The notes under the pieces: generated by a model
The model's database searches: none
What the model was told of the DNA's origin: nothing
The model's input: only the letters and a program-made list of their open reading frames with translations
Source of the DNA: Clostridia bacterium
GTDB lineage: Bacteria; Bacillota; Clostridia; TANB77; CAG-508
Length of the DNA: 39,135 nucleotides
Assembly: GCA_022797215.1 (NCBI GenBank)
Contig: JAAWKD010000021.1
Location: 1-39,135 of the forward strand
Direction of reading: 5' to 3'
Translations under genes and position numbers: made by a program
Shown here: piece after piece, positions 4,995 through 30,428 of the stretch
Layout of the letters: every line of letters begins with the position of its first letter
Position numbering within the stretch: position 1 is the first letter of the stretch

Positions 4995-5103
4995 TCACTA
5001 TTTCGTTTCGCTTCATTGCGAAAGTCATCCGTAGTTCACTTCACTACGTTACGCATAAGTTATTCGTAACTCGCTTTGCTCGAACGACTAACTTAACTCC
5101 ATT
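4995..5103. repeat. Hairpin-rich repeat between rplU and rpmA
   Basis: The 253-nt gap between rplU and rpmA has no gene. Its rplU-proximal part is a run of short palindromes: TAAGTTA/TAACTTA, GTAGT/ACTAC and TTTCGC/GCGAAA. Positions 5052-5097 match 17534-17579 at 39 of 46 bases in the same orientation. It starts just after the rplU stop. It may be a small non-autonomous repeat or an RNA structure in the rplU-rpmA transcript. The rest of the gap (4870-4990) shows nothing recognisable apart from the rpmA ribosome binding site. Confidence 0.6.
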
Positions 5104-5496
5104 TTACACGGCTGACTTTTTTGTAACTGGCTTTGCAGATGCTGTTTTTGTTTCTGTTGCTGCTTTATCTTCTGCTTTTGCACTAGCTGTTTTAATACTT
5201 GTAATTTCTACCTTTGTGTATGGTTGTCTATGTCCTTGTGTTCTTCTATAATTCTTTTTCGCTTTATATTTATACACTAGGATTTTTTTAGCTTTACCAT
5301 GAGAAACTACTTTCCCTTCTACCTTAACACCTTTTACATAAGGAGCTCCTACTTCTACTTTTTTGTCATCAGATACTAGAACTACATTATCAAATGTTAC
5401 TTTTTTTCCTTCTTCTACATCTAATTTTTCAAAAAATACTACATCTCCTTCTGTTACTTTGTATTGTCTTCCACAGCTTTCAATAATTGCGTACAT
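5104..5496 (-). CDS. rplU: 50S ribosomal protein L21
   Basis: L21 binds 23S rRNA domain I. Residues 1-103 are a standard L21 ([14 protein letters not shown] at the start; [18 protein letters not shown] near the end of the core). I start it at the ATG preceded by AGGAGGTG rather than at the upstream in-frame ATG (5544), which has no such site. After the core comes a 27-residue lysine/alanine tail in which KTASAK occurs twice. Tails like this occur in some Clostridia and are likely disordered. It has a strong promoter and heads the ribosomal gene pair. Confidence 0.96.
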
Positions 5497-5596
5497 TCTT
5501 CGTACACCTCCTATATTTGCATACTCGCTAAGCATAAATAACAAGGCAATTACTCAAAAAAGTAATATTTAGTTGCCCGACTCAGGCGGCTTACAC
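5497..5596 (-). ncRNA. Structured 5' leader of rplU (L21 leader-like)
   Basis: The transcribed leader of about 100 nt contains a hairpin with two paired blocks (GGCAA with TTGCC, ATTACT with AGTAAT) upstream of the rplU ribosome binding site. Low-GC Firmicutes commonly carry an autoregulatory L21 leader here. I infer the same role by position and structure, not by covariance matching. Confidence 0.4.
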
Positions 5597-9595: not shown

Positions 9596-11422
9596 TTAAT
9601 TTTCTCTAAAGCTTACCATATTAGAATATTCACCATATTTTTTTACACCATTCACATATTTATATGCTCTAACTCTTGCTGTATAATTATATTGTTTCCC
9701 TGTAATTCCTGAAATGTCAATATAATTATTAGTTGTATAATATGGTATACGACCAATTCCTGGAACAGTAAATTCAATTTCATATCCAGCTACATTATTT
9801 GCTCTATTCCAACTTAATCTTACAGTTGTTCTCTTTACATTAGCATTTAAGCCTGTAACTTGTGGAACATTGGCTACATTTGAATTTGCTCTTAAAGTCG
9901 TGAATCCTTGAACTGCTATTTGTTCACTAGTATATTCTTTTCCATTTACAATTTTATAAGCAATTACTCTTACTCTGTAATAAGTATCGGCTTTTAAATT
10001 TGCCAATACATATTTTCTGCCTGCTGTATCTCCATAAAATTTGAAAGTTCCGTTTCCTTCTGCAAGAGAAACATAGTATCCTTGTGCTCCATTAACACTT
10101 GACCAACTTATATCAACACTATTTTGAGTAACCTTGTCAATGTAGATATTTTTTACACTTCCTACTGTAATTTGTTCTTCTTGTGTATAGAAAGATTTTA
10201 CATAAGATATATTTCCATATTGTTTCTTTCCATTTACCCATTTATAGGCAATTACTCTTACACTATATTTACTGTCTGCATCTAGGTTTCCTAAAACTGC
10301 TTGTGTTTTAGTTGTATCATATATAGTTTGGTATTTTCCATTATTTTTAGCAAGGTCAATTTCATATCCATCTGCATTATTTGCTTTTGTCCAAGCTATA
10401 GTTGCCTCTTTTTCTGTAACATTATATACGTCTATTCTACTAATATCTCCAACTACCACTTTCTCTTCTTTTGTTGTAAAGAAAGTGTATGCAGATTCTT
10501 CCCCATATACCTTATTTTTATTTATCCATTTATAAGCAACTACTTTTACTCTGTAATAACTATTTGCACTTAAGTTCCCTAAGCGAACCGCATTTTTCGT
10601 TGTATCATATACTTTTGCATAACTTCCATAGTTTTTAGATAACAATACTTCATATCCATCTGCATTATTTGCTACTGCCCAAGATACATCAGCCATTGTT
10701 TCTGCTATATTATATGCTGTTACATTTGTTACTTTATCAGGTTTAGTTCCATTATTATTGTTGTTATTATTATCATTATTAGTATCATCTTTATTAAAAT
10801 CAATTGTAATATATTGTGCTACTGATTTTGCTCCATAACTTACATTATCAGCATTTAAGGTCTGGCAGGCTCTAACGCTAAATCCATATCTCATGCCATT
10901 TGAGAAACCTTTTAGCATGGCATTAGTTGTAGTTACCTCACCAATATTTACATTTCCAAATCCTGGTACATCTACAAATACTTGATATTTATTTGCATTG
11001 TTTACACTTGACCAATTTAATGTAACATATCCATTTGCTTGTGTTACAGTTAAATTTTGTACCTGCCCTAAATTAGTTTGGTTTGTTGTTGTAGTAAAAT
11101 TGATTTCATTTGAAGTTGCAACTTCCATTTTAGCATGGTCATATGCTGTTACTCTCAAACGATAAGTCGTATTTTCTGTAAATCCAATTAAACTTGCTTC
11201 ATTAGAATTTACAGAACCAATCTTTGTTCCATTAACATATACATTATATCCAGCACTATTTGAAACAGAAGCCCAAGTAAGTTTCATTTGGCTGCCATTC
11301 ATTACAGCTTTAAAGTCACCAATACTTTCTACTAAGCTTACTGCTTGCATTACTGTACTCATCATTAGTAATAGTAAAATTGCTAATGTCATAATTGATA
11401 CAATTTGTTTTTTATAATTCAT
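9596..11422 (-). CDS. Secreted protein with six fibronectin type III domains
   Basis: A 608-residue exported protein. A signal peptide (MNYKKQIVSIMTLAILLLL, about residues 1-30) precedes six Fn3-like repeats at roughly 33-113, 117-207, 226-320, 322-418, 420-510 and 515-608. Each repeat shows the W/Y core residues (LTWASV, VSWAVANNADGYEV, YRVRVIAYK). An asparagine-rich linker separates repeats 2 and 3. Repeats 3-5 are closely similar, suggesting internal duplication. No LPxTG, membrane anchor or catalytic domain is visible, so it is probably a secreted or loosely attached surface protein. I use the ATG behind GGGGAG, because the upstream in-frame codon at 11455 lies inside the promoter. Confidence 0.85.
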   Translation of the reverse strand: MNYKKQIVSIMTLAILLLLMMSTVMQAVSLVESIGDFKAVMNGSQMKLTWASVSNSAGYNVYVNGTKIGSVNSNEASLIGFTENTTYRLRVTAYDHAKMEVATSNEINFTTTTNQTNLGQVQNLTVTQANGYVTLNWSSVNNANKYQVFVDVPGFGNVNIGEVTTTNAMLKGFSNGMRYGFSVRACQTLNADNVSYGAKSVAQYITIDFNKDDTNNDNNNNNNNGTKPDKVTNVTAYNIAETMADVSWAVANNADGYEVLLSKNYGSYAKVYDTTKNAVRLGNLSANSYYRVKVVAYKWINKNKVYGEESAYTFFTTKEEKVVVGDISRIDVYNVTEKEATIAWTKANNADGYEIDLAKNNGKYQTIYDTTKTQAVLGNLDADSKYSVRVIAYKWVNGKKQYGNISYVKSFYTQEEQITVGSVKNIYIDKVTQNSVDISWSSVNGAQGYYVSLAEGNGTFKFYGDTAGRKYVLANLKADTYYRVRVIAYKIVNGKEYTSEQIAVQGFTTLRANSNVANVPQVTGLNANVKRTTVRLSWNRANNVAGYEIEFTVPGIGRIPYYTTNNYIDISGITGKQYNYTARVRAYKYVNGVKKYGEYSNMVSFREN

Positions 11423-11445
11423 TATTAACTCCCCTTTCCGCCTAG

Positions 11446-11474
11446 ATTTTATCATGTTTTATGTTTACTGTCAA
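11446..11474 (-). promoter_or_regulatory. Promoter of the fibronectin type III gene
   Basis: Consensus TTGACA (11469-11474) and TAAAAT (11446-11451) are 17 nt apart, with a TG extended -10. The predicted transcript starts near 11439, which fixes the gene start at 11422. Confidence 0.8.
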
Positions 11475-12474: not shown

Positions 12475-15400
12475 CTAAACTTCCTTAATAACTGCCTTTC
12501 CTTCTCCCACCAAATCCTCAAATTGCTTTAAAATTTCTGGTGTCATATAAATTCCACCTGCTTTATCTATCTTTTCTCCATTGACAATCTGTAACTGAAT
12601 ATTGTTCTTATCTCCTTGAAAGAAGTAAATTGCTCCTTTTAATTTGTTTCTCGTTTCTTCATCTAGTTCTGTAATATCTAATTCAAATACCTTAGCCTTT
12701 GTTTCTGTAAAAGGAGTAATAGTCCTTGCTACAATCTTAGGTTCTTCATCTTCACGAATGCTTAACCTTCCCTCTACAATAACAATATTCTCTTCAATCA
12801 AGCTACTGCTACAAGCTTGGTAACAGCTATCAAATACAATAAACTCTGTTGGACCATATAAATCTTCAATGGTAACAAATGCCATAAGTTTGTTATTTTT
12901 CGTATATTTCTTTTTTACACTTGTTATAATTCCAGCATAAGTAACATTTTGTCCATCTTTAAATTCTGTTTGATGTTCTTCATAAGTTTGCTCTCTTTTG
13001 AATTCTCCTTGTTCTTCTAAGTTCATTTCATTTTCGCTGTTAATTTGCCTTAATTGAAAGGTATTAATATTGGTCTTTGCTTCAATTTGTTCTCTCATAT
13101 TTTCAAGTGGATGACCTGAAATATATAAACCTAGCATTTCTTTTTCCATAGATAGTAAATCTTTGTGTTCATATTCTGGAAGTGTTGTGTAAGTATATTT
13201 CATTTCTTCTACTTCTTTGCTTCCACCCAAATCAAACATAGAAACTTGCCCGTCAAAACTCTTCTTTCCACTATCAGAAATCATATCTATAATTTTTTCA
13301 AAAGATGCAATCAAAGTCTTTCTAGTCTGTCCTAAATTATCAAAGCTTCCAGCTTTTATCAAACTTTCCACACATTTTTTATTAACTCCTAAGTCCTTAA
13401 TTCTTTCACAAAAATCACTAAAATCCTTGTAATCTCCATTTTTTTCTCGCTCTTGCACAATATTGTCTACCGCGTCAGTTCCTACATTTTTGATACTTCC
13501 CATACCAAAACGAATTTGATTTTTATCTACTGTAAATTTCGTATCACTTTTATTAATGTCTGGTTTTAAAATTTCAATAGCTAATCTTTTGCACTCTTCC
13601 ACATATCCTGGAATTTTATCTTGGTTACCTAAAAAGCTATTCAGCATTGCTGCCATAAATTCTGCTGGGTAATATGCTTTTAGGTATGCTGTTCTGTAGG
13701 ATACTACTGCATAAGCTGCTGCGTGCGACTTATTGAAAGCATATTTTGCAAACTCAGCCATCTCATCAAAAATTTTATCTGCTGATCGTTCATCAATACC
13801 ATTTCTCACACAGCCAGGAACAACAACATTTCCATTTTCATCTACTTGTCCATGAATAAAGATTTCTCTTTCCTTTGCCATAACCTCTAGCTTTTTCTTG
13901 CCCATGGCTCTTCTTACTAAGTCTGCTCTACCTAGTGAATATCCTGCTAAGTCCCTTACAATTTGCATAACTTGTTCTTGATAAACCATACAACCATAAG
14001 TAACTTCTAGAATCGGCTTTAAAGATGGGTGAGTATATACAGCATGTTCAGGGTCTTTTTTGTTAGCAATATATCTTGGAATCTGATCCATTGGTCCTGG
14101 ACGATACAAAGACACACCAGCGATAATATCTTCCAAACAGTCTGGCTTTAGTTCCTTCATAAAGTTTGTCATCCCTTGACTTTCAAACTGGAATATTCCT
14201 ACAGACTCTCCATTTTGCCATAACTTATACACTTTAGGGTCATTCATTTTTTCGTCAAATTTCACATCAATTCCTTGATTTTTCTTGACTAAATCAATCG
14301 TATCTTGAATAACTGTTAGCGTACGTAACCCCAAAAAGTCCATCTTTAAAAGTCCTAATTCTTCTAATGTAGTCATAATATATTGTGTGGAAACAATACC
14401 ATCTCTAGCATATAAAGGAACATAATTAACTACTGGTTCTCTTGCAATAATCACACCACAAGCATGAGTTGAAGCCTGCCTTGGCATTCCCTCTAACGCC
14501 ATTGCAATATCCAATAATTTCTTCATCGATTCATCTGACTCATATAAATCTTTTAATTCCCTATTCTTTTCTAGTGCTTTATCAATCGTAATATGTAATT
14601 CGTTTGGTATCATTTTCGCTAGTTTATCCGCTTCTGCATATGGCAAATCTAGTACCCTTGCCACATCACGAATTACCATTCTAGCTGACATGGTTCCAAA
14701 TGTAATAATCTGAGAAACATGGTCTTTTCCATATTTTTGCTCTACATATTCAATTACTTTATCTCTTTTTTCATAACAAAAGTCAACGTCAAAATCAGGC
14801 ATACTAATTCTTTCAGGGTTTAAGAAACGCTCAAAAAGAAGTCCATAGGCAATGGGGTCAATATCTGTAATGCCAATCGCATAGGCAACAATAGAACCTG
14901 CACCTGATCCACGTCCTGGACCAACTGGAATGTCATGTGTTTTAGCATAGTAGATATAGTCCCATACAATTAGGAAGTAGTCCACATATCCCATTTTGTT
15001 AATAACACCTAGTTCAAATTTCATTCTCTCTTGCATTTCTTCTGTGACGTTATCCCCATAACGTTCCTTCATACCGTCCATTGTTAATTTTTCTAAGTAA
15101 TCATAGTGAGTTTTAAATTCTGCTGGCACATCATAATTCGGTAAAATTGTATGTCCAAATTCAAATTCTACATTGCACTTTTCTGCAATCTTTACTGTAT
15201 TTTCAATGGCGTCTGGCACATTGCTAAAAAACTCACTCATTTCTTCTGGTGATTTTACATAGAGTTCATCTGTCTCAAACTTCATTCTATCTTCATCTGT
15301 CATGCGCTTTCCAGTTTGAATACAAAGTAACACTTCATGATTATAGGCATCTTCTCTTTTTAAATAATGAGCATCATTAGTTGCTACTAGTGGAATATCT

Positions 15401-15987
15401 AGTTCTCTCGAAAGTTGAATTAATTTTTGATTAGCAAGCACCTGTTCATTAATACCATTATGCTGAATTTCTAGGTAATAATCCTCTCCAAAAATAGACT
15501 TATGCCATAAAGCCACTTCTTTTGCCTTTTCCATATCATTTGCCAAAATTGCTTGATTTACTTCTCCTGCTAAGCAAGCACTACAGCATACTAACCCCTC
15601 ATGATATTGTTCTAAAGCTTCATGATCAATACGTGGCTTATAGTAAAAACCTTCTGTATAACCTAAAGACACTAATTTTGCTAGGTTTTTATATCCTTCA
15701 TTGTTTTTAGCCAGTAAAATTAAATGGCTATATCTAGTATCTAAATTAGGGTCTTTATCTGTTCTAGAACGTGGTGCTACATAAACTTCGCAACCAATAA
15801 TAGGCTTTACTCCATTTGCTTTACACGCTTTATAAAAATCAATAGCACCAAACATAGCACCATGGTCTGTAATTGCCATCGCGTCCATTCCCAATTCTTT
15901 CGCTCTAACTGGTAAATCTTTTATTCTATTTGCTCCATCTAGTAAACTAAACTCACTGTGGATATGTAAGTGTACAAAATTTGCCAT
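12475..15987 (-). CDS. dnaE: DNA polymerase III subunit alpha (DnaE)
   Basis: A replicative C-family polymerase of 1170 residues. An N-terminal PHP domain carries HLHIHSEFSLLDG and AITDHGAMFG. The palm domain has the catalytic aspartates in MPDFDVDFCYEKRDKV and the third acidic site in LLKMDFLGLRTL. Tandem helix-hairpin-helix motifs and a C-terminal OB fold (about 990-1090, VTYAGIITSVKKKYTKNNK) follow. Firmicutes usually pair a DnaE with PolC; PolC is not in this window. The ATG is preceded by AAGGAG at ideal spacing. The 5' end overlaps the 3' end of the transposase gene upstream by 35 nt. Confidence 0.97.
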   Translation of the reverse strand: MANFVHLHIHSEFSLLDGANRIKDLPVRAKELGMDAMAITDHGAMFGAIDFYKACKANGVKPIIGCEVYVAPRSRTDKDPNLDTRYSHLILLAKNNEGYKNLAKLVSLGYTEGFYYKPRIDHEALEQYHEGLVCCSACLAGEVNQAILANDMEKAKEVALWHKSIFGEDYYLEIQHNGINEQVLANQKLIQLSRELDIPLVATNDAHYLKREDAYNHEVLLCIQTGKRMTDEDRMKFETDELYVKSPEEMSEFFSNVPDAIENTVKIAEKCNVEFEFGHTILPNYDVPAEFKTHYDYLEKLTMDGMKERYGDNVTEEMQERMKFELGVINKMGYVDYFLIVWDYIYYAKTHDIPVGPGRGSGAGSIVAYAIGITDIDPIAYGLLFERFLNPERISMPDFDVDFCYEKRDKVIEYVEQKYGKDHVSQIITFGTMSARMVIRDVARVLDLPYAEADKLAKMIPNELHITIDKALEKNRELKDLYESDESMKKLLDIAMALEGMPRQASTHACGVIIAREPVVNYVPLYARDGIVSTQYIMTTLEELGLLKMDFLGLRTLTVIQDTIDLVKKNQGIDVKFDEKMNDPKVYKLWQNGESVGIFQFESQGMTNFMKELKPDCLEDIIAGVSLYRPGPMDQIPRYIANKKDPEHAVYTHPSLKPILEVTYGCMVYQEQVMQIVRDLAGYSLGRADLVRRAMGKKKLEVMAKEREIFIHGQVDENGNVVVPGCVRNGIDERSADKIFDEMAEFAKYAFNKSHAAAYAVVSYRTAYLKAYYPAEFMAAMLNSFLGNQDKIPGYVEECKRLAIEILKPDINKSDTKFTVDKNQIRFGMGSIKNVGTDAVDNIVQEREKNGDYKDFSDFCERIKDLGVNKKCVESLIKAGSFDNLGQTRKTLIASFEKIIDMISDSGKKSFDGQVSMFDLGGSKEVEEMKYTYTTLPEYEHKDLLSMEKEMLGLYISGHPLENMREQIEAKTNINTFQLRQINSENEMNLEEQGEFKREQTYEEHQTEFKDGQNVTYAGIITSVKKKYTKNNKLMAFVTIEDLYGPTEFIVFDSCYQACSSSLIEENIVIVEGRLSIREDEEPKIVARTITPFTETKAKVFELDITELDEETRNKLKGAIYFFQGDKNNIQLQIVNGEKIDKAGGIYMTPEILKQFEDLVGEGKAVIKEV

Positions 15988-16726
15988 ATTTTTCTCCTTT
16001 TGTCGCTAATTGTCTTTTTTCTATCTTCATTTTTGAAATAATTTCTGCTATGATTTTATCTCTTTTATCTACTTTCTCATTTTGAATAGAAACTATATTT
16101 TCAATATGAAGTAATTCTTTTATTTTTTCAATCGCCTGTTCATCAGATACTTTCACATTTTCAATTTCAAATTCTTCTTTCTCATACCCTTTTATTCTTT
16201 CGTATTCTACATGGAAGTTTTCAAAATCTTTTTTACTCATCTCTGCCATTTTTAGTACTTTCTCAGTCTCAATTAGTCGAGAAAATTGGCTATATTCATG
16301 ATAACTACTCCAACAAAATTTAGAATATTTGCACATTCCAGCCTTTTCAGGGTTAAAATGTATATATCGAATAATATTCAGTAAATATGGCAGATTTTCC
16401 ACATACTTACTTTTAAATCTATTATAAAATACATGTCCTATCCTATTATACTTCTTATTAAAATACAAAGCATAACTAATTGCCAATGACTGAATAGCCT
16501 TAGATAACTTATCTTCTTTATCCATTATTACTAAGTGAACATGATTATGCATTAGCACATAAGCATATAAGTCATAATGATATTTTTCCTTTGTTTCTTT
16601 TAAACACTTTAAAAATTTTCTTCTATCAGTATTATCATAAAATATTTCTTGTTGATTAATACTACGAAGAATAACATGATAAACTCCTGTATAAGATTTC
16701 TGATTTTCTCTACAATCTCGGGGCAT
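15953..16726 (-). CDS. REP-associated tyrosine transposase (RAYT, Y1 family)
   Basis: A 257-residue Y1-type transposase. Residues 60-64 (HNHVH, after YAYVLM) form the HUH metal site. The segment SYALYFNKKYNRIGHVFYNRF carries the family tyrosines and the GH-F-RF pattern. RAYTs cleave single-stranded REP palindromes and are thought to spread them. The family's usual C-terminal helix (RQL-TG-SR-like) is cut short: after KRQLAT the frame reads straight through the dnaE ribosome binding site and into dnaE before stopping. The gene is therefore probably truncated or fused at its 3' end. It lies between rqcP and dnaE; no terminal inverted repeats are obvious at its flanks. Confidence 0.88.
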   Translation of the reverse strand: MPRDCRENQKSYTGVYHVILRSINQQEIFYDNTDRRKFLKCLKETKEKYHYDLYAYVLMHNHVHLVIMDKEDKLSKAIQSLAISYALYFNKKYNRIGHVFYNRFKSKYVENLPYLLNIIRYIHFNPEKAGMCKYSKFCWSSYHEYSQFSRLIETEKVLKMAEMSKKDFENFHVEYERIKGYEKEEFEIENVKVSDEQAIEKIKELLHIENIVSIQNEKVDKRDKIIAEIISKMKIEKRQLATKGEKYGKFCTLTYPQ

Positions 16727-16838
16727 AGTATTCCTACCTTTCCTTTCACTATTTGCCCCCTATTGATTTTTTACTACTATATCATTTTTTCTACTATATT
16801 TCTATATGAGAAATAACTTTATTGCTTTTACTAAGCTA

Positions 16839-17078
16839 TTATTCCTTCATTTTAATTAATGTTTCAATTGGTTCACTTTGTCTTTGTGGAATTCTTAAAA
16901 CTTCAAATTTTGAAATCTTATCTCCAAACCTAATCTCTACAATATCACCTGTCTTAACCTCGTAACTTGGTTTAACTGTTTTTCCATTAACAGAAATTCT
17001 ACCACCATCTGCAGCTTCATTTGCAACAGTCCTTCTCTTAATGACTGTTGACATTTTTAAAAATTTATCTATTCTCAT
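16839..17078 (-). CDS. rqcP: S4-domain RNA-binding protein RqcP
   Basis: A 79-residue S4-domain protein (MRIDKFLKMSTVIKRRTVAN, GRISVNGKTVKPSYEVK, GDIVEIRFGDK) that closely matches Bacillus YabO/RqcP. RqcP works with RqcH on stalled 50S subunits to add alanine tails in ribosome quality control. It lies 6 nt downstream of the MazG-like gene, the same order as yabN-yabO in Bacillus. The downstream yabP/yabQ/divIC neighbours are absent; a RAYT gene occupies that place. Confidence 0.9.
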   Translation of the reverse strand: MRIDKFLKMSTVIKRRTVANEAADGGRISVNGKTVKPSYEVKTGDIVEIRFGDKISKFEVLRIPQRQSEPIETLIKMKE

Positions 17079-17084
17079 CTTTTT

Positions 17085-17432
17085 TCACTTCCATTCTCTA
17101 TTAAAGTTTATTTCTTCCTTATTTTTTAATCCTTTAACAATATCCATATCTATTAACTCACACATTCCCATTAAGCAAATAAATACATCTGTTATTTCAT
17201 TTTCTAGATTAGAGCTATACTGCTTATTGATATCAATTGCTAAATTCTTATCTGTTTTTCTTACTTCTTTTGCTAGCTCACCCATTTCTTCTGTTAATAA
17301 ACACATTCTTTCTAGTAAACTATTTCTAAATCCTCTTACTTGAATCATATCTTTTATATACTTTTGTAACTCTTCTACACTACTTTCTTTACTTAATTTT
17401 TGTAATTCTTCCTTTAATTCATTATTTGTCAT
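17085..17432 (-). CDS. MazG-like nucleotide pyrophosphohydrolase
   Basis: A 115-residue all-alpha NTP pyrophosphatase of the MazG superfamily. The metal-binding pattern EExxE...ExxD is visible as LLTEEMGELAKEV followed by ENEITDVFICL. It is a single small domain, unlike the two-domain MazG or YabN. I use the ATG behind AAGGA; the in-frame ATG at 17453 lacks a ribosome binding site. Such enzymes hydrolyse non-canonical or excess nucleoside triphosphates. It sits between addA and rqcP on the same strand. Confidence 0.8.
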   Translation of the reverse strand: MTNNELKEELQKLSKESSVEELQKYIKDMIQVRGFRNSLLERMCLLTEEMGELAKEVRKTDKNLAIDINKQYSSNLENEITDVFICLMGMCELIDMDIVKGLKNKEEINFNREWK

Positions 17433-17486
17433 CTTTATTCCTTCTTTCAACATTTCTTAAAGATAAAACAGCTTTAAAATGTCATA

Positions 17487-17600
17487 CTAAAGGACACATG
17501 TCGCACTTAACTATACACTTCGCTTTGCTCCATCGCATAAGTTATCTGTAACTCACTTCGTTCGAACAGCTAACTTAACGTCCCCAAGTGCGACACATTG
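17487..17600. repeat. Composite REP-like element at the addA 3' end
   Basis: The outer parts, CTAAAGGACACA on the left and AACGTCCCCAA on the right, match the boundaries of the element at 30730-30790 (CTAAAGG and AACGTCCCCAA). Near-inverted TGTCGCACTT / AAGTGCGACA arms bracket an inner 46-nt repeat (17534-17579) also found at 5052-5097. The addA stop codon lies inside it. Confidence 0.6.
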
Positions 17601-20600
17601 CCACTCACAATTTGCTAAGCATATCTTTGCGCTTGTAACTTTTTTTTCTAATGCTTGTTCTAATGCTTTTTGGTAAATATCCATTTGAACTTGATATTTT
17701 TGAGCCACTTGTTTTTCTTTTCCTTTTGGAACATAGTCTGTTTTGAAATCTACTAAATGTACTTGATCTTGCTCATCAATATAGTATAAATCTATCATAC
17801 CTTGTACTAAAATATTTTTTTCAGAGCCTGCGTCCTTTGCTTCTTTAAAAATTTCTTTTGCTGGTAGATTGATATAAAATGGTTGCTCCTTGTAGATTTG
17901 TTTTGCTTTTTTTAGTTTTTTGAATAATTCTGATCGAGTATAACAATATACTAAATTAGCATCTATCACTTCTGCCTCTAATTGTGTAATAATTTCTTTT
18001 TGTAGTAATTCTTGAATAAGATTTTGAATGTCTTGTAATTCATATTCTTTTCTTTCATCTAATTTTTGGATACATAAATGGACTAAAGTTCCTTTTTGTG
18101 CTGATGTTAATTTTGTGACTTTTTCATTTTCTAATGGTTTTACTTGTATATACTGCAATTGCTTTTCTTCTAATTTTCTACTTACCTTGTTTTCTAAATT
18201 TCCTTCTTTGTCTAGCACATTACTGATTTGATTTTCTTCCTCCCAATTGACTTGGTCTTCTAAAGAAGGAAGCCTATTTTCCTGCTCTTGCTTTAACTTA
18301 GTTACAGAAGTTTTGGTTGGAAGCTTTGTATCCACTTCATAAGCATATTTCCATTCTAGATTTTGCTTTAATCCAGAGATGTCAACATCTTTTTGCTTTT
18401 CTACTTCTTTTTGAATTAATTCAGTAATTTTAGTTTCTTGCTTTTCTTCTGTCACTTGTAATTCCTTGATTAAATCTTGTTTTGCAAAAGTTTGTAAAGT
18501 TATGATATCACTTAATTCTAATTGTTTTCCTTTTAAAGATATCGTTTTTCCCTGATGAAATAGATATACATATTCTAACCAATCTAAATAGGAACTACAT
18601 TTTTTCATCAGCTTATAATCTATCTTAAACGTTTCATCTTCATACATAGCTAAGTTTTTTTCTTTTTCTGCTAATTCTTTTTGAAAATCCTTGCTTCTTC
18701 CTGTGATAATTAGTTTTTCTTTTGCTCTTGTTAAAGCAACATACAAAATTCTTTCTTCTTCTGAAAGAGTTTCTTGTTTTATTTTTAAACTAATAGCTTG
18801 TTTTGCTGCTGTTGTATATTTTAATTTTTTAGTAGTATTAATAAGAGTTGGACCTACTCCTAAATCCTGGTGCATTAAAATGACTTCATTTAAGTCCCTT
18901 AAATTAAACTTTTTATGTGTATGGCTTAGAAATACTACTGGAAATTCTAGTCCTTTACTTTTATGGATACTCATAATACGAATTACATTTGCACTTTCTC
19001 CAATAAGCTTTGCTGAGCTTAGATCTCCATTTTGCTTTTTTAATTTTTCAATAAATTGAACAAAATGAAATAGTCCTTTAAAACTTGCTGTTTCATATTG
19101 CTTTGCTTTTTCAAACAAAGTCTTTAAATTAGCTTGTCTCATTTCTCCATTTGGTAATAGTCCTACATACTGGTAATATCCTGTATCTAAATAGATTTGC
19201 CAAATTAGTTCATCTAAAGGCAAATATTCTGACTGTGCTCTCCATTTTTCTAATTTTTCTAAAATTGCTTCTATCTTGCTTTTTAATGGTTCCTCACAAG
19301 ATATTCTTGTTTTGATAAGGGCTTCATAAAAATTACAATTCCTATCTGTTAATCGAATCGTGATTAATTCATTATCTGTCATTTGCCCAATACTAGACCT
19401 TAGTACTACTACGAGTGGAATATCTTGCATTGGATTGTTAATCAATTTTAGAATGGATAAAATGGTTTCAATTTCTACACTCTCTAAATAGGATGTAGAA
19501 CTATCACTAAATACTGGTAAGTCATAATCTGATAATTCTTTTTCATAAATTGGTGCTAAAGTGCTTGTTGCTCTTAGTAAGATTACAATATCCTTTGGTT
19601 CAATCTGTCTATATCCTTTTTTTCTGTCATATACTTGATAATCACTTTGTAGCAAGTCTTTAATGCGTTTTGCTACAAACCTCGCTTCTAATACATCATC
19701 TTCTATTCTATCGGTATTTTCTTCTTCCTCTTCTTCACCAATAATAGCAGTAATAGTGTCATCTTCTTTCATATCAATGACATTTAATTCTGCTATTCCT
19801 GCATAAGAAGTTTCTTCTTCTGGTTCTGGATAATTTGCTCCATAGTTTAAATATTCATTCTCGTTATAGGTAATATCTCCTAGTTTTTCACTCATAATGG
19901 CTTCAAATACCAAATTTGTAATGTCTAAAATATTATTCCTACTTCTAAAGTTACGGAATAATTGAATTTTTAAATCATCCTTTTCTTGCTTATTTTCTTT
20001 TGTTTGATAGCTTGCATATTTTTGCAAAAACAGTTCTGGTCTTGCTTGCCTAAATTTATAAATACTTTGTTTGACATCTCCTACCATAAAGATGTTGTTG
20101 CCTTTGGAAATACTAGTTAGAATAGCCTCTTGTACTAAGTTACTATCTTGATACTCGTCAATGGCTATTTCTTCAAATCTTTCTTCATATTTTTTGCTGA
20201 CTGGTGTTTTGTTTCCCTGTTCATCTACTAATAATTTTAATGCCAAATGTTCAATATCATTAAAATCTATACAATTTTTTTCTCTTTTCTTTTCTTTAAA
20301 GTTCTCACTAAATTCTAAAATGAGTTTTGCTAATTTTTGCAAAATAGGATAAAGAATTTCAAAGTCTTTTGCTATTTCTTCTGAAGTGCTACTCATTAGT
20401 GGCGTCACTTTTTCTTTGATGTCTTTTTTCACTCTATCTCTAATCTCTTTTGCCTCTTCTTTCATCTCTATTGTTACTTTTTTATCCACTGGCCATTTTC
20501 CAAAACTAATCTGATGAACTTTTTGATATACTTCATCCCATGAATTGTTTATACTTGCTACTTCTCCTATTTGTAAAATATCTTCATTAATGACTTGATT

Positions 20601-21338
20601 AAACTTACTACATTCTGGAAATTTTGCTAACTCTCTTTGTACTTTTTTTAGTTTTAAGAGACTTTCTTGTAGTGCTTCTTGCACTTCTTCTAAAATCACT
20701 TTTCCTAAAGCTGTATGCCCAAAATCCAAAGAAGTATCTACTTCAAATTGTCCCACTTTTTCTTGTAACCATTTTTCTGGAAAAGGACTACTTTGAATAA
20801 AGCGATAGATGGATAAGATCAATTCTTGTAATGGCTCATCCCCACGATATCCTGTATAAGTTTCTAGTAATTCTAAAAAATCGCTATCTTGTTCTATATA
20901 TTTTTGCTCCAATAAATCCTCTAATACTTCTTGTTTTAATAAATCAATTTGGGTTGTATCTGCAATTGTAAAATTACTTGGTAAATCAATTTCATAGAAA
21001 TGATTACGAATTACATCTAAACAGAAAGAATGTATAGTACAAATACTTGCTTTGTTTAACAAGGTAATTTGCCTTTGTAAATGTTCATTTGATGGGTCTT
21101 GTTCTAATTTTTGATAAATGGCTTCTAAAATTCTTTCTCTCATTTCTGCTGCTGCTGCGTTGGTAAATGTTACTACTAACAATTTATCAATATCCATTTT
21201 ATCCTCAATTATTTTATAGATAATTCTTTCTACAAGCACAGCAGTTTTGCCACTACCTGCGGCAGCAGCTACTAAAATATTGGTATCTTTACTTTCAATT
21301 GCTTGTAATTGTTCTGTCGTCCACTTTACCTCTCCCAT
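17553..21338 (-). CDS. addA: ATP-dependent helicase/nuclease subunit A
   Basis: AddA is the UvrD-like helicase-nuclease subunit of the AddAB complex that processes double-strand breaks for RecA. The 1261-residue protein has Walker A AAAGSGKTAVLVERI near the N-terminus, Walker B DEYQDSN, the helicase motif SIHKSKGLEFPVVFL, and a C-terminal RecB-type nuclease with GMIDLYYID and LVDFKTDY. Start is the ATG preceded by AAGGAAG. The last ten residues (GDVKLAVRTK) are encoded by the repeat element at 17487-17600, so the natural C-terminus was altered by its insertion. addB, normally directly upstream, is absent here: a divergent gene occupies that side. Confidence 0.95.
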   Translation of the reverse strand: MGEVKWTTEQLQAIESKDTNILVAAAAGSGKTAVLVERIIYKIIEDKMDIDKLLVVTFTNAAAAEMRERILEAIYQKLEQDPSNEHLQRQITLLNKASICTIHSFCLDVIRNHFYEIDLPSNFTIADTTQIDLLKQEVLEDLLEQKYIEQDSDFLELLETYTGYRGDEPLQELILSIYRFIQSSPFPEKWLQEKVGQFEVDTSLDFGHTALGKVILEEVQEALQESLLKLKKVQRELAKFPECSKFNQVINEDILQIGEVASINNSWDEVYQKVHQISFGKWPVDKKVTIEMKEEAKEIRDRVKKDIKEKVTPLMSSTSEEIAKDFEILYPILQKLAKLILEFSENFKEKKREKNCIDFNDIEHLALKLLVDEQGNKTPVSKKYEERFEEIAIDEYQDSNLVQEAILTSISKGNNIFMVGDVKQSIYKFRQARPELFLQKYASYQTKENKQEKDDLKIQLFRNFRSRNNILDITNLVFEAIMSEKLGDITYNENEYLNYGANYPEPEEETSYAGIAELNVIDMKEDDTITAIIGEEEEEENTDRIEDDVLEARFVAKRIKDLLQSDYQVYDRKKGYRQIEPKDIVILLRATSTLAPIYEKELSDYDLPVFSDSSTSYLESVEIETILSILKLINNPMQDIPLVVVLRSSIGQMTDNELITIRLTDRNCNFYEALIKTRISCEEPLKSKIEAILEKLEKWRAQSEYLPLDELIWQIYLDTGYYQYVGLLPNGEMRQANLKTLFEKAKQYETASFKGLFHFVQFIEKLKKQNGDLSSAKLIGESANVIRIMSIHKSKGLEFPVVFLSHTHKKFNLRDLNEVILMHQDLGVGPTLINTTKKLKYTTAAKQAISLKIKQETLSEEERILYVALTRAKEKLIITGRSKDFQKELAEKEKNLAMYEDETFKIDYKLMKKCSSYLDWLEYVYLFHQGKTISLKGKQLELSDIITLQTFAKQDLIKELQVTEEKQETKITELIQKEVEKQKDVDISGLKQNLEWKYAYEVDTKLPTKTSVTKLKQEQENRLPSLEDQVNWEEENQISNVLDKEGNLENKVSRKLEEKQLQYIQVKPLENEKVTKLTSAQKGTLVHLCIQKLDERKEYELQDIQNLIQELLQKEIITQLEAEVIDANLVYCYTRSELFKKLKKAKQIYKEQPFYINLPAKEIFKEAKDAGSEKNILVQGMIDLYYIDEQDQVHLVDFKTDYVPKGKEKQVAQKYQVQMDIYQKALEQALEKKVTSAKICLANCEWQCVALGDVKLAVRTK

Positions 21339-21369
21339 AAACAAACTTCCTTTTTATTTTTTCGAGTTT

Positions 21370-25691: not shown

Positions 25692-25908
25692 TTACTCCTT
25701 AGTAAATATTTTATCTTTTTTGTTATAAAACATTATGCTTTATTTTGTGGTAAAATTTGTTTACGATATACATCAGCAAACAATTTCAGAAAATCACTTT
25801 ATAAGACTTATTTCATTAGAACTTGATCCAAAAGAACGAATTAACAAGTCTAAAAAGCAAAGCTTTTAATATTTGATAACATTCCAATAATTGATAAGTT
25901 TTTCAAAT
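25692..25908. other. Intergenic stretch with no recognised feature
   Basis: Between the spoIIA control region and the mnmA terminator I see no gene with a ribosome binding site and no clear RNA structure. The longest plus-strand frame (25735-25869, 44 codons) lacks a ribosome binding site and resembles nothing I know. Confidence 0.5.
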
Positions 25909-25968
25909 ACAAAATGGAGTTTAATGATGTAACTTTTAAAAAGGTTACACGATTAAACTCCATTTTGT
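25909..25968 (-). terminator. Long hairpin after mnmA
   Basis: Arms ACAAAATGGAGTTTAAT and ATTAAACTCCATTTTGT pair perfectly over 17 bp. Inside them a second helix, TGTAAC/GTTACA, is separated by a small internal mismatch. It lies 23 nt past the mnmA stop. It is longer than usual for a terminator, and its flanking U tract on the minus strand (TATTTG) is weak. Confidence 0.55.
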
Positions 25969-25990
25969 TATTGTGGGGTAAGACAGGTTC

Positions 25991-30170: not shown

Positions 30171-30428
30171 AACAATAAACCTCCCCCTTATCTTTAAGGG
30201 CGAGGTAATTTTCTCACGGTACCACCTTAATTTTGACCAATAAATTAGTCAAATCTTCAAATCCTTTTAACGCAAGTTACACGGATAAACTTAAGTTTAT
30301 TTTCAGCTTATCAACTCCAAAGTTACGTTCAGTCCTCGTTTCTATAAGAAGCTCTCAGCATATCTACTTCTTTTCTCTTTCTAGCTCGTTTGAACTTACT
30401 TCTCTTTTTCTTCGTTTTTCAAAATTCT
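30171..30428 (-). ncRNA. T-box leader, valine-responsive
   Basis: The 260-nt leader has the T-box sequence AAGGTGGTACCGTG (minus strand, near 30216-30229) followed by the terminator. In Stem I an AAGT-aa-GTTC strand faces GAAC-GTA-ACTT, giving an internal loop with GTA (valine) as the specifier codon at 30324-30326. The opposing AGTA fits the conserved S-turn. Uncharged tRNA-Val is expected to stabilise the antiterminator and allow transcription of the DUF1653 gene and valS. Confidence 0.9.
30179..30206 (-). terminator. T-box regulated terminator
   Basis: ACCTC-g-CCCTTA pairs with TAAGGG-g-GAGGT around an AAGA loop, followed by TTATTGTTG on the minus strand. Its 5' side overlaps the region needed for the competing antiterminator. 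Confidence 0.85.

Follow-up and report, generated by a model that had tools for sequence, protein, structure and literature searches.

This locus raises the question of how the last residues of a conserved repair protein came to be encoded by a repeat. We analysed a stretch of 39,135 nucleotides (the window) from an uncultured gut bacterium of the Clostridia (contig JAAWKD010000021.1 of assembly GCA_022797215.1), in which addA (17553-21344, minus strand), encoding AddA of the Gram-positive type (TIGR02785, 1120 bits, residues 7-1243 of 1263), ends inside a composite repeat. A first-pass annotation of this DNA had proposed that a nested structure, an outer element like a repetitive extragenic palindrome (REP) around a 46-nt inner repeat, encodes the final ten residues and the stop codon. 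We consider it likely, with a probability of about 0.87, that small mobile palindromes of two kinds, both non-autonomous, have captured the end of addA. The genome of the window (G000) was compared with the others of its genus (30 genomes, designated by G-numbers; the assemblies of the relatives are metagenomic).

The composite repeat spans 116 nt (17480-17595, minus strand), in place of the 17600-17487 first proposed. On the minus strand, its outer REP-type element runs from 17595 (TGTCGCACTTGGGGACG...) to 17480 (...GTATGACA). The left half, TGTCGCACTTGGGGACGTTA (17576-17595), includes the target TTA at 17576-17578 and codes for V-A-L-G-D-V plus the first base of the Lys1257 codon; the right half, TAGTTAAGTGCGACATGTGTCCTTTAGTATGACA, lies at 17480-17513, and both halves were delimited from repeat copies. 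Between them, at 17514-17575, is the inner element of 62 nt (AGTTAGCTGTTCG...GTGTA), an 11-bp hairpin recognised by compensatory changes and by a match to the inner-repeat model R1 (17509-17577, 86.3 bits). It codes for KLAVRTK, the only part of the tail that derives from it, and for the addA stop TGA at 17555-17553. The composite supplies thirteen residues rather than ten, VALGDVKLAVRTK (residues 1251-1263), of which seven, together with the TGA, come from the nested second element. The last base of the Cys1250 codon possibly belongs to the composite too. Since G002 and G011 have a Cys at this position (WNCYE), a native AddA codon may coincide in part with the TGT of the REP. The TIGR02785 alignment stops at residue 1243, so the model does not cover the new tail. 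The 46-nt repeat was found as described, at 17534-17579, 85% identical to 5052-5097 and overlapping the 62-nt insert. The whole composite used as query gave 38 matches genome-wide at E<=1e-3, self included, and its predicted folding had z = -3.0, with none of 200 shuffles equally low. The composite is unlikely to be an assembly artefact, as it is present in the assemblies of two species (G000 and G015).

AddA ends were read in 24 relatives and, in a second set, in 80 named loci, 79 of them with a readable stop; most genus genomes belong to both sets. Only G015 had the same composite and the same tail, both among the 24 relatives and among the 79 loci, and no orthologue with the same terminal residues and without the repeat was found, the KLAVRTK end being absent from all 78 other named loci with a readable stop. 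The repeat-free proteins stop a few codons past a conserved Trp, with unrelated residues: NWKQVSI in G028, DWKLVTI in G001 and NSNWELF in G010 (tails are given up to the stop). These three genomes provide the cleaner empty sites; G005 was dropped as an empty site because the DNA following its addA could not be aligned. The REP at the identical junction in G003 is simple, differs in arm type (TGTCAGTTTAGGGACGTTAGTTTAACTGACA) and has no inner part; AddA there ends in CVSLGTLV. REPs also lie inside the addA frame in G009 (SVLGR) and G007 (VSVLGRSSKLTICQS), and a REP-like stretch is found at the addA end of G012 (QLVPIVTQITERK). In G018 a GGGACGGGGGTTTTGTC stretch (NGTGVLS) was seen by eye, which the REP motif used does not match. 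Overall, the motif was present within 60 nt of 8 of 79 addA stops and in 26 of 7800 control windows. A preference of REPs for addA was considered (5 of the 23 addA stops in the genus, compared with 6 of 162 other stops; p 0.005) and is not claimed, because addA was picked owing to the finding itself and the related species are not independent.

These comparisons bear on a reverse relationship, in which the tail is native to AddA and the gene end was the source that seeded the repeat copies, not their target. The composites of G000 and G015 are about as alike (95% identity) as the 300 nt of addA that precede them (93%), as this relationship would allow; the same figures give no support for a special constraint on the new tail. 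The idea is nevertheless hardly credible, being contradicted already by the unrelated ends of repeat-free relatives and the tail's absence from the 78 other loci, by the approximately 71 distinct inner sites, nearly all beside other genes (see below), and by outer copies that have the same left arm and no addA sequence. The proposal that the repeat supplied the AddA C-terminus agrees with the relatives on both sides: those without the composite end differently, and the one with the same tail has the same composite.

The outer element by itself is a 51-nt palindrome, TGTCGCACTTNGGGACGTTAGTTTGTGCGACATNTGTCCCNAAGTGCGACA. A 19-nt pattern of its left end, with up to one mismatch, had 21 matches in G000 and the reversed pattern had 0; the strict outer pattern was present in 6 of the 30 genus genomes. 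Three copies in G000 lack the inner part, at C10:6333 (TGTCGCACTTGGGGACGTTAGTTTGTGCGACATCTGTCCCTAAGTGCGACA), C48:53244 and C53:13632 (the last with a one-base loss). They read GACGTTAGTTTGTGCGACA, and have GACGTTAGTTT where the composites have GACGTTA-inner-(T)TAGTTT, with the inner element placed at the TTA in the centre, as GACGTTA-AGTTAGCTG...-(T)TAGTTTGTGCG. By manual count, the stretches fetched from four genomes contained 14 composites (four in G000, three in G005, three in G003 and four in G015), so that the nested arrangement recurs, with copy numbers of its parts far above chance. Two G000 composites, on C10 and C73, have six consecutive gap columns in the inner loop that are found in none of the other copies among the 37 aligned; the composite has therefore probably spread as a unit at least once. 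As a dispersed palindromic repeat the outer element corresponds to the REPs associated with RAYTs (REP-associated tyrosine transposases). Its ends read TGTC...GACA and GTTAG is internal, so that it carries no GTAG tetranucleotide as end tag; with regard to a CGTC end tag, its other strand reads AACGTCCC, inside the 51-nt unit, whose ends may differ from those of the functional unit.

A candidate for moving the outer element lies nearby. A RAYT-like gene (15953-16726, minus strand), coding for a Y1 HUH transposase (PF01797, 46.1 bits, cut-off 23), starts 827 bp downstream of addA. It scored 57.4 bits against the NCBIfam model NF047646 (REP_Tyr_transpos), under the cut-off of 80, and a second G000 copy scored 60.9. 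These two RAYT-like genes were the only Y1_Tnp matches in G000; the one near addA lies between an S4-domain gene (16839-17078), which adjoins addA in several relatives, and dnaE (12475-15987), both on the minus strand and identified by domain search. Between addA and the S4 gene there is a MazG-like open reading frame (ORF; 17085-17453, minus strand; PF03819, 20 bits, just below cut-off), with low-identity windows in G003 and G015. Y1_Tnp matches were present in 21 of the 30 genomes of the genus. We examined 27 of the 33 RAYT loci listed, leaving out three high-scoring Y1 matches (L249-L251) and three others; a REP motif was present beside 15 of the 27, on both sides (either orientation) in 12, as against 31 of 779 control windows of 1200 nt, and three of the 27 were scored on a wrong ORF and counted as misses. 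The second RAYT of G000 has inverted REP copies at C53:40765 (~0.9 kb before the gene) and C53:42589. In G009 the order is addA, REP, RAYT, inverted REP and dnaE, and G015 has the same order plus an S4 gene between composite and RAYT; within each of these genomes both REPs enclosing the RAYT have the same arm type. Taken together, the RAYT HUH transposases found in this genus are the most likely agents to have moved the outer element.

The gene order in G009 also suggests another origin for the REP at the addA end, as the left terminal repeat of a whole RAYT unit inserted between addA and dnaE and not as a solo REP. In accordance with this, G003 and G015 also have REPs on both sides, and a RAYT beside addA was found in 4 of the 30 genus genomes (G000, G003, G009 and G015), all with a REP-made AddA tail. 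However, the S4 gene separates the REP from the RAYT in G000, G003 and G015, the REP of G003 lies 502 nt from the RAYT start versus ~140-320 nt at most other RAYT loci with an upstream REP, G007 and G012 have the addA-end REP with no RAYT there, and at locus L162, outside the genus, a RAYT match on the other strand 3.8 kb from addA coexists with a stop that has no REP motif. We would put this origin a little short of an even chance.

Two observations on the RAYT gene are recorded here. Its frame in the window overlaps the dnaE start at 15953-15987, and the RAYT frame of G015 ends in a REP (CRTKRQMSHLTNVP). Furthermore, the window (16705-16760, minus strand) and locus L036 (1430-1475) have a RAYT leader in common, in which GGGGCAAA precedes the start codon and TATGCCCC lies at it; the two might form a hairpin across the translation start.

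The inner element is about 62 nt long (AGTTAGCTG...GTAAACC), with TTA on both flanks in the best copies. In its hairpin, 27 cells of the alignment were changed on both sides of the stem; shuffled alignments had a mean of 7.6, none of 500 as high, and slid control structures scored 1 to 9. With R1 at E<=0.01 there were 58 matches in G000, 61 in G015, 45 in G005, 10 in G003 and 0 in G028; at the stricter E<=1e-5, 9 genomes of the 30 in the genus had the element, and 3 of 66 outside it had a single match each. The fetched stretches of four genomes, each of a different species, contained 122 arrays, which came down to approximately 71 distinct sites once those with similar flanks were merged, a rough procedure that joined some unlike sites, e.g., tpiA of G000 with dnaK of G005 and an RNase R-like site with the retroelement-like sites described below. 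The first 27 nt usually hold stops in all three frames (TAA, TAG and TGA), so the frame of entry sets the tail: the edge TAA, an added LS, or an added KLAV or KSAV. Other genes with KLAV- or KSAV-like tails, which the first-pass annotation had anticipated, were indeed found. One is in the window itself, where a second array (5002-5097, minus strand, identified by repeat match) lies at the 3' end of rplU (bL21, 5104-5544), whose tail KKSAV comes from the repeat-like sequence. Elements of the IS200/IS605 type are insertion sequences without terminal inverted repeats, with subterminal hairpins and with insertion adjoining a fixed short target; the inner element has one hairpin, TTA on both sides in the best copies, and blurred right ends. 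An integron attC reading of the hairpin was considered and dropped, as the copies are dispersed or in short clusters with no cassette genes between them. A literature search that did not cover subscription papers found no publication on the inner element.

The position of the inner element relative to genes, which were called with a simple purpose-written codon-usage caller, was one-sided. The stop of the upstream co-directional gene fell in the element at 23, 21 or 18 of 46 sites, depending on whether the smallest, median or largest distance per merged site was taken, whereas at the opposite end 0 of 18 convergent genes stopped in it (Fisher p 8e-5, 2e-4 and 1.3e-3, respectively). Among the 46, two more frames run deeper and two to five stop within 10 nt before the element. 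At every counted site with a gene ending inside the inner repeat, the stop-bearing end faces that gene. We compared 16 genes across species by reading their ends (most names were assigned by eye): ten ends were changed by the element, four unchanged and two, of a second kinase and a signal peptidase, unclear. A transketolase-like protein gained 26 and 40 residues from a two-copy array, and L10 became one residue shorter. The other changed ends were those of a histidine kinase, RNase R-like (RRIDFQLAVSAGTNCTDN with the element vs RRIDFEAI in an element-free species), MATE-like, AsnB-like (EYFKSAV vs EYFINA) and AlaRS-like proteins, PheS (FLKQLR vs FLKQF), SerRS (TPKVS vs IPKK) and L21. At dnaK, pheS, yebC, tpiA and addA, some species have a REP and another has the inner element at the same gene end.

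Such one-sided placement at the 3' ends of co-directional genes, together with a conserved hairpin with compensatory changes, might be expected if the inner element acted in RNA, as an mRNA stabiliser, processing site or terminator selected at gene ends, the tails being a side effect. We regard this as unlikely. Non-Watson-Crick cells in the stem, counted manually, were G-U (11) about as often as A-C (12), as expected of a DNA palindrome and not of RNA selection; no terminator-like site was found at 17000-18000 of the window; and the copies are patchy, as seen at the stricter setting, with sister species often lacking the element at the same gene ends.

The takeover by two mobile palindromes would have involved two insertions. 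A REP-type outer element, most likely moved by a RAYT, would have entered the last codons of addA, and the inner hairpin element would have inserted, perhaps afterwards, at the TTA in the middle of it, possibly by a similar single-strand cut-and-join. Translation of addA would now enter the composite, where the outer element adds VALGDV and the inner one KLAVRTK before the inner TGA is reached. The new AddA tail would be tolerated rather than useful, and the inner element would be tolerated at gene ends because its three-frame stops usually limit the gain to a short tail.

Several observations weigh against this scheme or parts of it. The target TTA is clearly doubled in only some copies, with many blurred right ends, and no transposase was tied to the inner element. 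The RAYT beside addA in G000 has a C-terminus that differs from that of G009 and runs into the dnaE start; it lacks a REP towards dnaE and is separated from the composite by the S4 and MazG-like genes, so that there is no clean RAYT unit. Between four and six of the counted sites stop at a TAA on the very edge of the element, likely an old stop regained, and four of the 16 genes (dnaK, mraY, yebC and tpiA) kept their protein end despite an element or REP there, the tpiA stop falling in a REP in two species. Finally, G000 and G015 have the composite in common without being sister genomes in the AddA tree, (G015,(G005,(G000,G003))), where G000 groups with G003; this topology implies loss in G005, replacement in G003 or recombination. 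A stronger proposal, which we hold tentatively and find more doubtful than probable, is that the inner repeat is a gene-end-seeking mobile element that uses REPs at gene ends as landing pads and time and again gives core proteins new C-termini while the host survives. It would join at TTA, which overlaps both TAA stop codons and the middles of REPs.

Seventeen places in G000 (L317-L333), among them C8:493, C37:34134, C37:55376, C39:5824, C53:20535, C64:930, C64:16776, C65:21479 and C46:1802, resemble the ends of variable regions in the targets of diversity-generating retroelements, which, from the pattern, we take them to be. The inner repeat follows RGVAV in 9 of the 17 and in one decayed case, and the others continue to a GTGL-like end; G000 has six RVT_1 matches, one of them ~1.1 kb after such a place on C45. 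Elsewhere in the window, the only Rfam match at gathering thresholds was a T-box leader (30193-30421, minus strand, 111.5 bits). Direct repeats with 288-nt spacing (9939-10715) lie within an ORF at 9596-11455, palindromic arms containing GCGACA are found 743 nt apart (81-112 and 856-887), and a 34-nt hairpin with 85% complementarity is located at 25904-25973.

The locus is one of many cases in which short mobile DNA rewrites the C-termini of core-gene proteins, and it connects palindromes of the form TGTC...GGGACGTT in gut Clostridia with RAYTs. Because close relatives offer filled, half-filled and empty sites, rates, targets and tolerance become measurable. It is also a warning that C-terminal differences between such genomes can stem from repeats and not from protein evolution.

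Three described systems are close to this one. REP elements are short intergenic palindromes, with inverted copies flanking the genes of Y1 transposases, as described by Nunvar 2010 (PMC2817692). Scattered palindromes with inverted copies on both sides of such genes are also what we found, but here the host is clostridial, the arms read TGTC...GGGACGTT with no GTAG-type tag, and the RAYT matches to NF047646 are below cut-off. According to Di Nocera 2013 (PMC3733652), GTAG- and CGTC-tagged REPs end ORFs or sit inside them, and no RAYT flanked by CGTC units was found; repair genes such as recB are among the targets there, as addA is here, but the stop is a TAG given by the REP end, whereas here the nested second element gives TGA. 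Intragenic miniature inverted-repeat transposable elements (RPE, ERIC/RU-1 and YPAL), of ~100-200 bp and many with open frames according to Delihas 2007 (PMC2229807), are likewise hairpin elements of small size that have become joined in frame to conserved genes; the inner element differs in being ~62 nt long and in having a stop in each of the three frames close to its left end. Stop codons supplied by REPs have already been published, and so have REP-RAYT units; what is new is that a second element is nested in the REP, that it has stops in three frames and that it attaches to the 3' ends of genes on one side only.
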